Below, piece after piece: positions 16,379 through 21,296 of a stretch of 21,296 nucleotides of DNA. Made by a program: the position numbers and the translations under genes. A model generated the notes under the pieces. It worked only from the letters and a program-made list of their open reading frames with translations, was not told the DNA's origin and made no database searches. The DNA comes from a virus, in IMG/VR virus record IMGVR_UViG_3300030090_002684, positions 1 through 21,296 of that record. One strand, written 5' to 3'. Positions within the stretch are counted from its first letter, which is position 1. The number at the start of each line of letters is the position of its first letter.

Positions 16379-16582
16379 TTATACGCTTATATTTACTCGT
16401 TGTGTCGATGCTAATTGCTGCGCCTCGACCCTGTTACCCTCTTTGGTGTACATAGTCGGTATGATTGTCTCTACCGCTTCGCGCACAGTCTCGCCTTCAG
16501 CGCCGGTTCTCAAACGCTCCTGCTTTTGCACAGCAACTTGCTTCCAACTGATCTGCGCTGTTTCATTAATGTTTATTTCCAT
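16379..16582 (-). CDS. Small phage protein of unknown function, 67 residues
   Basis: This gene starts inside the end of the oxygenase gene (17-base overlap), preceded by a GAGG ribosome binding site. The protein is soluble and mostly helical (SWKQVAVQKQERLRTG, then ETVREAVETIIPTMYTKEG), with Gln/Val-rich ends. I see no membrane segment or metal-binding motif. It ends three bases before the next ATG. The coding call rests on the ribosome binding site, the tight packing and a sensible composition. No function can be assigned. Confidence 0.55.
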   Translation of the reverse strand: MEININETAQISWKQVAVQKQERLRTGAEGETVREAVETIIPTMYTKEGNRVEAQQLASTQRVNISV

Positions 16583-17276
16583 CTTGTGATCCCTCTACAG
16601 GAAAACAATTTATGTTGGCGGCTACTGTCCTTCGCTCGCCTTCCCCCTGAAACGGATACACCATGTGCTGCATCCAGCTCGGAAACATATATAGCCTGCC
16701 CACCTGCGGCCTCACTACGACGTTCTGCGTGGGCTTGAGCCGTTCTCTGTCCCATGTGCTTGACTGTCCATAATTGAAACAGAGACAGCCATCGCTTTCA
16801 CCAGAGGCATTATACAATCCGTACTCTTGCGATCCCGGCCTCGGCCCCTGCACTATCTGGGGCGGCACCTTTGTCCATGTCGTGCAGCTAATACCCATGA
16901 TTGTTTTAGTGCCATGATCATGGATCGGGTTATAGTCACCTTCATAGCTATGCACTGACCATAGCTCATCCATTTCGACGTTACGATTACCGTCCAGCAC
17001 CTGACCGGATTGGGCCATGAACTGATTGATGTATGTCACGCCCATCTCGCACAAGAACCTAGAAAACGGTGCCAGCCTCGGATCTTCGTGATCCATAACA
17101 AGCTGTTCCCCTGCCTTGATCTGACCAACCAACGTATGCGCTGCGCTGACCTTATCATCTTGCGTAACTAGCTCATCAAGGTAATCGTTACAGGATTCAA
17201 CAAACTCTGTCGGGATGTCCAGCTCCATCAGGAATACTGACGGAAGCGGGTGCATCATGTACTCGATCTCAGCCAT
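16566..17276 (-). CDS. 2OG-Fe(II) oxygenase (prolyl-hydroxylase-like), 236 residues
   Basis: The protein is likely a non-haem iron, 2-oxoglutarate-dependent hydroxylase of the kind common in marine phages. The core motif is YNPIHDHG (115-122), giving candidate iron ligands H119 and H121 or D120. The distal histidine is H204 in MFPSWMQHMVYPFQGEGERR, and R215/R216 could bind 2-oxoglutarate. The intervening strands (TIMGISCTTW, then GRLYMFPSW) fit a double-stranded beta helix. The N-terminal 90 residues are helical. The substrate is unknown. A virion or host protein side chain is possible. The start ATG lies inside the upstream gene's end (8-base overlap). The family call is firm. The exact subfamily is not. 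Confidence 0.85.
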   Translation of the reverse strand: MAEIEYMMHPLPSVFLMELDIPTEFVESCNDYLDELVTQDDKVSAAHTLVGQIKAGEQLVMDHEDPRLAPFSRFLCEMGVTYINQFMAQSGQVLDGNRNVEMDELWSVHSYEGDYNPIHDHGTKTIMGISCTTWTKVPPQIVQGPRPGSQEYGLYNASGESDGCLCFNYGQSSTWDRERLKPTQNVVVRPQVGRLYMFPSWMQHMVYPFQGEGERRTVAANINCFPVEGSQDGNKH

Positions 17277-17457
17277 TCAGAGCTTCGACAGCAGCTTCTT
17301 CCTCGCCTTCTTCTGGCTCTTCTTCAGGTTCAACCAACTGAGCATCAGCTTGCACTTTTATTTTCATCATTAAAGGCCATGTCCCGCTTTTACTAGGCAT
17401 ATCGCCAAGAATCGCTAGGATTGCGTTGATCTCGTTTTCCTCTAGGTTGATTTGCAC
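17269..17457 (-). CDS. Small acidic-tailed phage protein, 62 residues (GTG start)
   Basis: The start is GTG at 17457, with AAGGA about ten bases upstream. The first 40 residues (EENEINAILAILGDMPSKSG, then WPLMMKIKVQADAQ) form a compact helical domain that I recall as a common small protein of marine phages. The C-terminus is very acidic (EPEEEPEEGEEEAAVEAL). It lies between the 84-residue protein and the oxygenase and overlaps the oxygenase start by eight bases. No function is known to me. Confidence 0.6.
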   Translation of the reverse strand: MQINLEENEINAILAILGDMPSKSGTWPLMMKIKVQADAQLVEPEEEPEEGEEEAAVEALNG

Positions 17458-17470
17458 GGTCTATTTTTCC

Positions 17471-17725
17471 TTATGGCTTGTATGCTTTTGCGGCTGCTAC
17501 GGCAGAGTCGATGGCGGTAAAGTCTTCTGACCCCCAGTCACCGAGCGCCTTGCCGTATTCTAGATAACCCGCACTGCGCAGTACACGCTCCTGCTTTTCA
17601 GCATTCGTCATGTCGTTGCAAAACTCGTTGTTTGCATCCAGCACGCTGGTGATGACATTCGCGCCATCTAACATGGCTTGATACATCTTGGCTTTGTCTT
17701 CGTCGGTTCTAGTTTCCTCAGACAT
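17471..17725 (-). CDS. Small phage protein of unknown function downstream of the tail fibre, 84 residues
   Basis: The start is ATG at 17725, supported by a strong AAGGAGGA (17731-17738) that overlaps the tail-fibre stop codon. The protein is acidic and helical (DEDKAKMYQAMLDGANVITS, then NAEKQERVLRSAGYLEYGKA). It ends with DWGSEDFTAIDSAVAAAKAY. It has no membrane segment. Its place directly after the fibre could suit a fibre-assembly or tail chaperone role, but nothing in the sequence proves it. The coding call is well supported by the ribosome binding site. Confidence 0.65.
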   Translation of the reverse strand: MSEETRTDEDKAKMYQAMLDGANVITSVLDANNEFCNDMTNAEKQERVLRSAGYLEYGKALGDWGSEDFTAIDSAVAAAKAYKP

Positions 17726-17730
17726 TTCAG

Positions 17731-17738
17731 TCCTCCTT
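17731..17738 (-). promoter_or_regulatory. Strong ribosome binding site for the 84-residue gene
   Basis: The minus strand reads AAGGAGGA, five bases before the ATG at 17725, and overlaps the tail-fibre TAA. It fixes the start of that gene. Confidence 0.85.
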
Positions 17739-20700
17739 ATGATTCTAGTGCGCTAACTTTTGCTTCAAGGGTTTCAATACGAGTCATTGCCTCTTGCAAG
17801 GCTTTGACAGCTTTCATATACAAAACGCTGTATTTAACGCTTTTGGTTTCTGTCTCTAATGTGTTCCCTTCCGTATCTTGGTCAGGACTGGTTGAGACTA
17901 AGCCGGACATGCCAGCAGACTCGACTTCTTGAGCGACTACACCAAGCATATTCGGCGCGTCTAAATTGTCCTCTTTGAAACTGAACTTACGAACTCTTAA
18001 CGCTTTTAGGTCTTCCCATTGCGAGCCTGCGTCTTCAATGTTTTCTTTCAGTTTTTGATCCGAAATGCCTGCGTAGCTGTTGTTTGTGTTTTGAACATTC
18101 CCGTTTGTTTGAACGAGAAACCTCACCGTCGCTGAACTTCCAACGGTATCCGTGGAACCAGAAAAAGCTCGTATTAAGTTGTAAGTCGTGCCAGAGGCTG
18201 TAGCACTTAATATGTGTAAACTGTTGTGATTAGCGGTTCTACTGTAAATAGTTGAAGTGCTATTGGCGTTTGTGAAAAACGGAATATTTCCGTCTCCATC
18301 CGACAAAACGACGTGATTGCTTGAGGCACGAATATCTAAGCCATGTTCATTTCCGTCATATCGGCCTAGAATAGTGTTTTTTTCGCCACTAGTGATATAA
18401 CGTCCAGCTTGGAAGCCGATGTAGGTACTGTTATCGTTTCCAGAACCAGTCGAAGAGGTTCCTGCAAGCGAACCTACGCATGTGTTGCCTACGCCAGAGC
18501 TAATTGACACGGCTGCGTTGTATCCGACCGCCGTATTGTAAGAAAGAGTGGCAGCCCCAGTGTTAGCATTGAGCAGGGCTTGAGCTCCAACAGCAGTGTT
18601 CGCGCCGTCAGTCACTGCTGACGAAAGCGCCCCATACCCTACGGCGACGTTAACATCCGCATCCGTTAAGGAATCACCCGCAAGCCCTCCAATAAGGGTA
18701 TTCTGAGTTCCCGTGGTGACTGAGACACCTGCATTGAAGCCAACGGCTGTGTTGTAGGCATCCGTAGCCGTAGTAAAGTTTTGTGCAGTAAGTGCTGATC
18801 TACCGATAGCTGTTGATCGGCTACCTAAAGTATCTGCGCTAAGAGCCGCAATGCCTACAGCAGTGTTGAAATCAGCATCAGTCAAAGCATCGCCTGCTCC
18901 AGAGCCGATGAGCGTATTTTGAAGACCCGTAGTGATGTTTTTACCCGCGCTATGTCCAACAGCCGTGTTGTTAGAAGTTGTAGCCGTAGTAAAGTTTTGA
19001 TCCTGTAAGGCTAAATGACCTATCGCAGTGGAAGAAGTGCCTAATGTATCTGCGCTCAAAGCACCGTAGCCCAGCACAGTATTTTGGCTAGAATCGGTCA
19101 GCGCGTCACCAGCTAGCCCACCCACAATGGTGTTGTTGGTTCCCGTACTGATAAGCGCACCTGCGTTATATCCCACCGCTACGTTGTAATTATCAGTCGC
19201 TGTAGTGAAGTTTTGAGTTGCTAAAGCAGATAATCCGATTGCAACAGCCCTGCTTCCTTTTGTATCCGAGGTCAAAGCAGATTTGCCGTAAACAGTGTTT
19301 CTTTCACCCACCGTGAGAGCATCAGCGGCAAGACCGCCAGTAATCGTGTTGAAGGTTCCCGTAGTTACGCTCTGACCTGCACCAAATCCAACTGCTACAT
19401 TATAAACATCCGTTGCAGTGGTGAGGTTTTGTTGATTTAAGGCAGCACGACCTATAGCCGTTGATTTACTACCTAACGTATCGCTTGATAAAGCCTCCTG
19501 ACCCACAACCGTATTTTCATCAGCGTCAGTGAGAGCGTCTCCAGCGAGACCACCAATGATCGTGTTCCTAAGTCCCGTGGTAACTGCCGCTCCTGCTTGC
19601 ATACCAACGGCTGTATTGTAAGAAGTGGTCGAAGTTGTAAAGTTTTGATTTTGTAACGCGCTTTTGCCAATAGCGACATTTTGAGCGCCTAGAGTATCTG
19701 TCGTTAATGCCTCAACGCCCATTGCCACGTTATTATAGCCGGTGGTTAGAGCGTCACCTGCAAGACCACCGACTAGGGTGTTCTGGGTTCCCGTGGTGAT
19801 TTGGACACCTGCTTGATAACCGACGGCTACGTTGTAAGCATTTGTTGCCGTGGTAAAGTTTTGAAAAAGTAGGCATCCATCACCAACAGCTACTGACCTA
19901 CTCCCTAACGTATCTGACCCTAACGCCTGTGAGCCGACTGCAATGTTGTTCGCCCCTTCTGTGAGAGCATCAGCCGCAAGACCACCAACAATTACGTTGT
20001 TAGTTCCTGTTGTGATAGCACTTCCTGCCGCATGTCCTACCGCCACATTCAACGAATTCGTAGCAGTGGTCATATTTTGTGTGCCAAGGGCCGTGTAGCC
20101 TACAGCAACGCTCATGGAGCCTAGAGTGTCTGACGTAAGAGCGCCGTAACCCACCGCTACGTTGAAGTCGGCATCTGTTAGAGCATCACCTGCAAGAGAG
20201 CCGACAAAGACGTTCTGGGTGCCCGTGGTCAGCGAACCACCAGAAGCGTATCCCACCGCCGTATTGTGGTCAGCGGCAGCTAAAGCATCGCCTGATAAGC
20301 CGCCAATAAAAGTATTGAACTGTCCCGACGTAATGCTTTTGCCTGCATCAGAGCCTACCGCTACATTGTAAAAATCCGACGCTGTAGCGAAGGTTTGATC
20401 TTTGAGCGCGTTGACGCCAATGGCTACAGAGTGTGAACCCATCACATTCGTAGTGAGGGCGTTGTAGCCCAAGGCGACATTGTTGCTCGCGGCAGTGGTA
20501 GCGTCACCTGCTAGGCCACCTAAAAACGTGTTTTGAACTCCCGTTGTGACTGCTGTTCCTGCATTGAAACCAACGGCCACGTTATAAGCGTCGGTGGCAG
20601 TAGTAAAATTTTGTGCTTCAAGTGCGGAACGTCCAATAGCTACGCTTCTTGACCCTAATGTGTCTGTTTTTAAAGCATTTCTGCCAACAGCTACATTAAA

Positions 20701-21296
20701 ATCTGCATGGGTGAGTGCTTCACCAGCACGTGAACCTATAAGCGTATTTTGTACTCCCTCTGTGACTGATAAACCAGCTTGATACCCAACCGCCGTATTA
20801 AAAGCATCTGCACCAGCATTCAGGGTTTTGAGAGCTTGATACCCAACAGCCACGTTGTCACCATGACCATCCTCAGTGCTTAACGCCTCAAAGCCTATGG
20901 CTACGTTGTTATCGCCCGTAGTCAAAGCCGTACCCGCTTCATCGCCCACTAAGACGTTGTAATTACCGCCAGAGGTAATGCTATCGCCAGTATTTACTCC
21001 TATGCGTGTGTTAGATGTTCCTGCGGTGCTTGTAGATATGCTCGGCACAGATAAATCAGTAAACGCATCGACCATCGCACCGCCGGAGCCAGCGCCATCA
21101 GAGTAAATGGCTTTTACTTGACCATTAGCAATTGTGACCGTAGCGCCAGAGCCTTGCTTGATGATGATGTTATACGGGCCAGATGAACCTGAATCTGTCG
21201 TTGCATTTTCTATGAACCACAACTTAGAAACAGTATTCGGCCCTATAGTGACGGTGCAATCGCTATCAAGAGCGCCAGTGTATTTAAGAAACATGC
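17737..21296 (-). CDS. Phage tail fibre, C-terminal part, with YadA-like beta-roll repeats and peptidase S74 chaperone
   Basis: The frame is open to the right edge. The first in-window Met (21294) lies within a region typical of the middle of a fibre (LKYTGALDSDCTVTIG), so the N-terminus is probably outside the window. At least 1185 residues are present. Residues 95-975 are a beta-roll built from short turns of the NxAVGxxA type, as in trimeric adhesin heads, arranged in 72-residue modules. Residues about 980-1070 are a beta-rich spacer. Residues 1078-1185 are a peptidase S74 intramolecular chaperone starting at SDQKLKENIED, where family members cut themselves before the Ser after trimer folding. 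They end in a coiled coil (RIETLEAKVSALES). It is probably a receptor-binding fibre. The repeat is described separately. Confidence 0.9.
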   Translation of the reverse strand, partial: MFLKYTGALDSDCTVTIGPNTVSKLWFIENATTDSGSSGPYNIIIKQGSGATVTIANGQVKAIYSDGAGSGGAMVDAFTDLSVPSISTSTAGTSNTRIGVNTGDSITSGGNYNVLVGDEAGTALTTGDNNVAIGFEALSTEDGHGDNVAVGYQALKTLNAGADAFNTAVGYQAGLSVTEGVQNTLIGSRAGEALTHADFNVAVGRNALKTDTLGSRSVAIGRSALEAQNFTTATDAYNVAVGFNAGTAVTTGVQNTFLGGLAGDATTAASNNVALGYNALTTNVMGSHSVAIGVNALKDQTFATASDFYNVAVGSDAGKSITSGQFNTFIGGLSGDALAAADHNTAVGYASGGSLTTGTQNVFVGSLAGDALTDADFNVAVGYGALTSDTLGSMSVAVGYTALGTQNMTTATNSLNVAVGHAAGSAITTGTNNVIVGGLAADALTEGANNIAVGSQALGSDTLGSRSVAVGDGCLLFQNFTTATNAYNVAVGYQAGVQITTGTQNTLVGGLAGDALTTGYNNVAMGVEALTTDTLGAQNVAIGKSALQNQNFTTSTTSYNTAVGMQAGAAVTTGLRNTIIGGLAGDALTDADENTVVGQEALSSDTLGSKSTAIGRAALNQQNLTTATDVYNVAVGFGAGQSVTTGTFNTITGGLAADALTVGERNTVYGKSALTSDTKGSRAVAIGLSALATQNFTTATDNYNVAVGYNAGALISTGTNNTIVGGLAGDALTDSSQNTVLGYGALSADTLGTSSTAIGHLALQDQNFTTATTSNNTAVGHSAGKNITTGLQNTLIGSGAGDALTDADFNTAVGIAALSADTLGSRSTAIGRSALTAQNFTTATDAYNTAVGFNAGVSVTTGTQNTLIGGLAGDSLTDADVNVAVGYGALSSAVTDGANTAVGAQALLNANTGAATLSYNTAVGYNAAVSISSGVGNTCVGSLAGTSSTGSGNDNSTYIGFQAGRYITSGEKNTILGRYDGNEHGLDIRASSNHVVLSDGDGNIPFFTNANSTSTIYSRTANHNSLHILSATASGTTYNLIRAFSGSTDTVGSSATVRFLVQTNGNVQNTNNSYAGISDQKLKENIEDAGSQWEDLKALRVRKFSFKEDNLDAPNMLGVVAQEVESAGMSGLVSTSPDQDTEGNTLETETKSVKYSVLYMKAVKALQEAMTRIETLEAKVSALES
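18355..21012 (-). repeat. 216-bp (72-residue) tandem repeat of the tail fibre
   Basis: The QNFTTAT motif or its variants starts at residues 228, 300, 406, 478, 550, 622, 694, 766 and 838. The spacing is exactly 72 residues except 300 to 406, which is 106 (72+34). A degenerate copy continues in phase at 910, and an N-terminal copy in phase begins at residue 166. At DNA level the 20-mer gtagccgtagtaaagttttg occurs at 18764-18783 and 18980-18999, exactly 216 bases apart. Each module is a 34-residue half A (AVGxxAGxxITTG, then GGLAGDALT) plus a 38-residue half B (TLGSRSVAIG, then QNFTTAT). Copies differ at many third positions. Confidence 0.93.

Follow-up and report, generated by a model that had tools for sequence, protein, structure and literature searches.

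Shaft modules of uncultured phage tail fibres appear to be exchanged in register, with a preferred junction near a conserved DNA word

A tail fibre with a modular shaft

The stretch of marine phage DNA analysed here (the window; 21,296 nt, IMG/VR record IMGVR_UViG_3300030090_002684) ends in a fibre gene that encodes a long array of 72-residue repeats. This raises the question whether such a repeat is a unit of structure, a unit of recombination, or both, and whether the repeats arise within one array or travel between phages. The gene and its C-terminal part are located as follows:

17737..21294, minus strand: tail fibre gene (ORF with 1185 codons seen; 5' end cut by the window edge)
17740..18378, minus strand: C-terminal region, residues 973-1185, with a short tip and the S74 chaperone domain (PF13884)

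Sequence matches identify the gene product as a tail fibre that ends in an S74 chaperone domain. The ORF matches the tail spike family phrog_4636 (E 6e-88), residues 1078-1127 match Peptidase_S74 (PF13884; E 4.9e-7, 30.4 bits versus a cut-off of 22), and an S-D-x-K-L-K-E-N-I region is conserved in an alignment of 29 fibre C termini. A sub-threshold Pfam match to PDR_assoc was discarded. The gene does not truly start at the ATG at 21294: the near-identical relative L002 and all other relatives checked begin 65 residues further upstream, with MATYVNDLRLKEI or a variant of MATYVNDLRLKEI, so that the 5' end of the gene is truncated by the window edge (21294-21296).

The neighbouring genes encode a 2OG-Fe(II) oxygenase, an endolysin-like protein, a holin-like protein and a virion structural protein. 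For the latter, the nearest annotated phages, including DSL-LC04, CRP-901/902 and HTVC023P/027P, are just 31-40% identical, which marks the window as part of an uncultured phage. Near-identical relatives in the fibre gene are L002, L003 and L043. The genes directly downstream of the fibre (16388-17752) share 84-94% DNA identity with relatives whose fibre arrays are about 65% alike, and the fibre is thus a hypervariable island between conserved genes.

The repeats were delimited with a turn parser based on unconstrained dynamic programming with no preferred turn length, which resolved residues 166-919 into turns of 17-17-17-21 residues (A-B-C-D), that is, ten 72-residue (216-bp) modules and an extra 34-residue A-B pair, with no register slip. 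Self-identity of the fibre protein is highest at lag 72, where it reaches 49%, compared with a maximum of 16% in 200 shuffles. The resulting features are listed below; "word" denotes copies of the conserved DNA word treated in a later section.

20800..21012, minus strand: lead-in turns 18-17-17-19, residues 95-165 (turn parser)
20584..20799, minus strand: module 1 (A-B-C-D), residues 166-237
20368..20583, minus strand: module 2, residues 238-309, with a one-mismatch copy of the word at 20539-20550
20266..20367, minus strand: extra A-B pair (half-module), residues 310-343
20050..20265, minus strand: module 3, residues 344-415
19834..20049, minus strand: module 4, residues 416-487
19618..19833, minus strand: module 5, residues 488-559, with a one-mismatch copy of the word at 19789-19800
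19402..19617, minus strand: module 6, residues 560-631, with a one-mismatch copy of the word at 19573-19584
19186..19401, minus strand: module 7, residues 632-703, with a two-mismatch copy of the word at 19357-19368
18970..19185, minus strand: module 8, residues 704-775
18754..18969, minus strand: module 9, residues 776-847
18538..18753, minus strand: module 10, residues 848-919
18709..18720, minus strand: exact word copy GTCACCACGGGA in module 10
18379..18537, minus strand: tail turns 17-19-17, residues 920-972 (turn parser)

An earlier note on this DNA had read the array as about eleven modules over residues 166-920. The strict phase and the half-module stand, and the count of full modules becomes ten; the span of 18355-21012 that the note gave also takes in the lead-in and tail turns, which are off the grammar. 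The lead-in of 18-17-17-19 is common also among relatives. The extra A-B pair is 52% identical to its neighbour and as diverged as the other copies, indicating that the half-module is not a recent slip.

Turn grammar among relatives

The comparison set comprised 487 modules from 92 non-redundant genes and contains four turn types: A (NVAVGyxAGxavTTGxq), B (NTLiGGLAGDALTdaDx), C (NVAvGyxALsaDTLGSr) and D (SVAIGxxALxxQNFTTATdsY). Leave-one-gene-out classification of A, B and C turns reached 96%, and the 21-residue turns are spaced four turns apart in 404 of 464 successive cases (87%, versus 11% for random placement). Fifty complete modular relatives share the four-turn grammar with 2-12 long turns each, so that module number varies among relatives while module length is nearly always equal. 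The constant module number and unequal module lengths that the earlier note had named as refuting its reading were not observed. Gaps between related arrays favour sizes of 17, 34, 53, 55, 72 and 106 residues, and of 55 gaps between 60 and 300 residues long, 22 are exact multiples of 72.

Every relative in which the 17-17-17-21 grammar was found is a metagenomic contig. The grammar is absent from the YadA-like arrays parsed in the named phages CRP-1, CRP-7, HTVC111P, HTVC112P, Venkman and P-SSM2, which consist almost entirely of 17-residue turns (or of turns of 16-18 residues). Similar arrays of 17-residue turns are encoded also in bacterial bins (L316-L331; Bacteroidetes, WWE3 and others), some of which have pairs of 22-residue turns in place of single 21-residue turns.

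Predicted fold of the shaft

A 288-residue slice comprising four modules was modelled as a single chain with AF2, together with 100 slices of relatives, which yielded a mean pLDDT of 96.1 and one short strand per turn. The best PDB matches of this model are the heads of the trimeric autotransporters BpaC (Z 17.3 over 225 residues) and UspA1 (Z 17.1), followed at lower scores by CbpF, EibD and YadA (Z 12-14); other repeat folds match as well, namely a curli subunit (15.9), an ice-binding protein (12.9) and GlmU (about 11). In Foldseek, the match to BpaC has an E value of only 0.0078 at a probability of 1.0. By structure comparison, the shaft shares with the autotransporter heads (BpaC, UspA1, YadA, EibD, BoaA and CbpF) a left-handed parallel beta-roll and the turn motif N-x-A-V/I-G. 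The shaft is therefore, according to the model, a left-handed parallel beta-roll of the YadA-head type with about 50 turns, and it is probably a trimer. With a layer rise of about 4.8 Å in such beta-rolls (PMC9543794), the length of a 50-turn shaft is estimated at about 24 nm.

Autotransporter head turns have 14-15 residues, unlike the turns of 17 and 21 residues in the window fibre with their super-unit of four, and the shaft is therefore assigned to the same fold but not to the ordinary YadA head repeats. Weak matches to Pfam YadA_head (PF05658; E up to 1, best 5e-6) in 54 of 101 four-module slices, among which the window slice itself is not listed, suggest a distant sequence relation. A sequence search against solved structures gave no match for the fibre protein, and a profile search gave only a chance match. 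The window protein is a phage fibre with an S74 domain and not an autotransporter; no C-terminal YadA membrane anchor is listed for it, its C terminus being occupied by Peptidase_S74. The model of the C-terminal region is weak (pLDDT 69) and confident in the chaperone part only.

The proposal that four turns form a unit of the shaft is borne out by the distinct turn types and the spacing of the long turns. In the monomer model, however, every turn is alike, which makes the four-turn unit a periodic pattern rather than a separate folded domain.

Old copies within a gene, exchange between genes

The module copies within the window are old. Pairs of modules share 50-64% DNA identity and no exact run longer than 20 nt; where residues are conserved, their codons agree in 38.5% of cases versus 32.9% expected. 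This is close to synonymous saturation and agrees with the view of the earlier note that recent slippage alone does not account for the array. Tandem Repeats Finder reported nothing for the array, because the copies are too diverged. Among all 487 modules, the best identity to another module of the same gene has a median of 0.62 and a maximum of 0.82, whereas the best match in a different gene has a median of 0.73 and reaches 1.00, with 119 modules reaching at least 0.85. Individual modules are shared at 90-98% identity by the fibres of different phages, usually at different positions.

These figures bear on the possibility that modules owe their number and variety mainly to duplication or unequal crossing-over inside a single array. 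Although the range of 2-12 long turns among complete modular ORFs and one within-gene pair at 82% (in L005) would fit such a process, the near-saturation of copies in the window, the low within-gene identities and the location of recent similarity between genes make it quite improbable. Since modules within a gene are nearly saturated, recent internal duplication, sought by within-gene identity in the window and in the 487 modules, was not seen. Of the proposed change of fibre length by unequal recombination, the variation by whole modules holds, but its attribution to events within an array, whose copies are old, is not supported.

The window illustrates the alternative. Module 4 is 88% identical at the DNA level to modules located elsewhere in the arrays of L010 and L047, and a 214-nt tract reaching from module 5 into module 6 is 96% identical to L010, where it lies at turn 6 instead of turn 22. 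The window modules at turns 18 and 22 thus match L010 modules at turns 14 and 6, which means that both place and order have changed. When shared tracts were defined as at least 60 nt at 90% identity between genes, 513 of 513 kept a common frame, and the 490 to which a phase could be assigned all agreed in module phase. Among interior tracts, 107 of 133 lie at shifted positions, and the length distribution of shared tracts peaks at one module. In each of 44 phage pairs, the cassettes are more similar than the flanks downstream of them (93.8% versus 83.1%), a difference to which selection by the 90% cut contributes. As far as metagenomic contigs can tell, the sequence comparison shows that related phages exchange modules of their fibre genes in register and in frame, and that the preferred junction lies in turn A. 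The four-turn module is thus a unit of recombination, as had been suspected, in the sense that single-module cassettes are exchanged between the fibres of different phages.

Because every modular relative comes from a metagenome, the mosaics might be assembly chimeras joined at the word. This is highly improbable, as the shared tracts are mostly 90-98% and not 100% identical, the identical stretch at breakpoints (about 13-20 nt) is judged to be shorter than the usual assembly k-mers, and the same turn string was recovered from separate metagenomes (e.g., L025/L026/L027).

Breakpoints of exchanged tracts

The ends of exchanged tracts cluster within the module. Unique tract starts fall at phase 24-48 in 51% of cases and unique tract ends in 32%, versus 15% and 9%, respectively, in a null simulated with uniform true breakpoints and similar extension scoring. 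Binomial p-values overstate independence because tracts share donors; among 52 independent cassette families, starts fall at phase 24-48 in 25 of 45 cases and ends at phase 24-60 in 24 of 45. Only about half of the breakpoints lie inside this late-A-turn zone. Among tracts with both ends in the zone, 25 of 26 measure 206-235 nt, which corresponds to one module, and the remaining one measures 461 nt.

The same zone emerges from a linkage profile that makes no use of tract ends and gives the probability of near-identity persisting over the following 36-nt window. With bootstrap resampling over genes, linkage is lowest at phase 36-48 (0.32; 0.09-0.54), with the listed bootstrap minima between phases 24 and 66, and highest at phase 126-138 (0.96; 0.89-1.00). 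On the basis of the simulation and this profile, an artefact of alignment ends was rejected as the source of the clustering. The cassette boundary falls in the middle or late part of turn A (about nt 30-48) and not at its start. By breakpoints and linkage alike, exchange thus breaks at a short conserved motif, as in fibres of the T-even type.

A conserved DNA word in turn A

The strongest synonymous conservation of the module lies in five consecutive codons, A-turn residues 10-14, which give the word CAGTCACCACGGGA. Codon divergence from the modules' own usage is 0.41-0.80 bits at these residues, compared with a median of 0.10 over all residues; one other codon (residue 49) also reaches 0.41 bits. 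At residue 10, the codon is GCA in 74% of cases when the residue is Ala and TCA in 73% when it is Ser, thus ending in A either way. The codon of T13 is ACG in 69% of modules, versus 21% in the TTG of B turns and 10% in arrays with 17-residue turns only; the codon bias of the word is absent from both. Identical 12-mers at the word are up to 7.5 times more common than after synonymous shuffling. Near-exact words in the tested near-complete records concentrate in the fibre array, with spacings that are mostly multiples of 216; a single match, in G004, lies outside the array.

The word is degenerate, with two or fewer mismatches in only 43% of non-redundant modules and in only five of the ten modules of the window. 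Its strength is weakly linked to the number of sharing partners (rho -0.27, p 0.025), the word is weaker in genes for which no sharing was detected, and words at breakpoints are closer to the consensus than others in a comparison that is partly circular. The most common 12-mer of the modules is a different one, TCAAAACTTTAC in turn D (phase 185-197; many loci), which is only about twofold above synonymous expectation and coincides with few tract ends.

We consider it likely that the beta-roll shaft undergoes in-register exchange of cassettes between phages, seeded at the conserved word. During co-infection, phage recombination would cross over between otherwise diverged modules, with the word in late turn A providing the short homology. 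Since a crossover at the word would preserve the turn register, the fibre could change its surface residues, and at times its length, while still folding correctly. The benefit of the exchanged modules, by analogy with fibres in general, may be altered host attachment.

The role of the word as the cause of exchange has one main rival. Crossovers might occur anywhere in the module, with only those in the late A turn giving rise to foldable proteins, so that selection on protein junctions would replace a DNA hot spot. The B, C and D turns and the front of A may indeed form a co-adapted set, and phase 120-160 is almost never broken. Such selection, however, gives no reason to expect the synonymous conservation of these five codons, which extends to residue 10 whatever its amino acid, nor the absence of the codon bias from the B-turn TTG and the 17-only arrays, and we regard it as unlikely. 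An even less probable explanation is that the conserved codons serve translation or mRNA structure (e.g., pausing once per module) and coincide with the breakpoints by chance. A coding-strand word repeated once per module would fit such a role, but the signal takes in the third base of a residue that varies and is lacking in arrays that have the same turn motif but no D turns. It is similarly improbable that a phage or host enzyme recognises the word as a dedicated site of recombination, with programmed one-module exchange diversifying attachment.

Recent events

Two pairs of close relatives capture recent changes. L032 and L078 are identical at the DNA level over their first 18 turns and nearly the same over their last nine, with a difference of 288 residues (four modules) between these two stretches. 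On the left, the junction lies inside the word (GGGGGTTCAG/(C or T)CACCACGGGAAT), and on the right, in a similar TTG stretch of a B turn. Window and L002 differ at 16 of 3558 nt, 14 of which are located in a single patch:

18658..18708, minus strand: 51-nt replaced patch (window versus L002), beginning directly after the word in module 10

L043 carries a third version of this patch. No exact donor of the window/L002 patch was present among the loci compared. A diversity-generating retroelement was rejected as its source, judging from the patch differences alone, because they involve all kinds of bases, unlike those caused by adenine mutagenesis.

Relation to known systems

The closest precedent in mechanism is the distal tail fibre of T-even phages, in which, as reportedly described by Tetart, Desplats and Krisch in 1998, recombination between short conserved motifs swaps modules. 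The principle is shared, in that recombination at a short motif within a fibre or adhesin gene swaps modules between phages, but in fibres of the window type the motif is repeated with every structural module of a long shaft, and what is swapped is a single module of that shaft. The likeness is one of mechanism and not of membership, as the best family matches of the fibre are phrog_4636 and S74.

Among bacterial adhesins, recombination in the YadA-headed UspA1/UspA2 of Moraxella has been shown experimentally to exchange modules and change length, with transfers of long segments of about 200 residues; the available part of that study reports no one-module cassette with a phased DNA word (PMC3458076). 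An expansion by several turns (three layers) is present in the BpaC head (PMC9543794). Marine metaviromic islands contain tail fibres that are hypervariable between close relatives, one of these fibres having a YadA domain, although the available part of the study documents this as loss of read recruitment, with no module grammar or breakpoints (PMC3909814). Recombination at conserved motifs in T-even phages, exchange of UspA modules, expansion of BpaC and variability of marine phage fibres are thus already known. What looks new is a single shaft in which structural module, recombination cassette and phased DNA word coincide; a limited set of paper searches on the shuffling of tail-fibre repeats yielded nothing that matches the array or the word.

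Each repeat of such a shaft would carry its own crossover point, which offers a concrete route to remix and resize a long repetitive phage fibre while its fold is kept. The speed of fibre variation in marine phages becomes directly testable from reads, and the modules provide a natural set of interchangeable beta-roll blocks. The 2OG-Fe(II) oxygenase gene of the window lies near the fibre (16566-17276), and genes of this kind are listed also for marine phage islands (PMC3909814).
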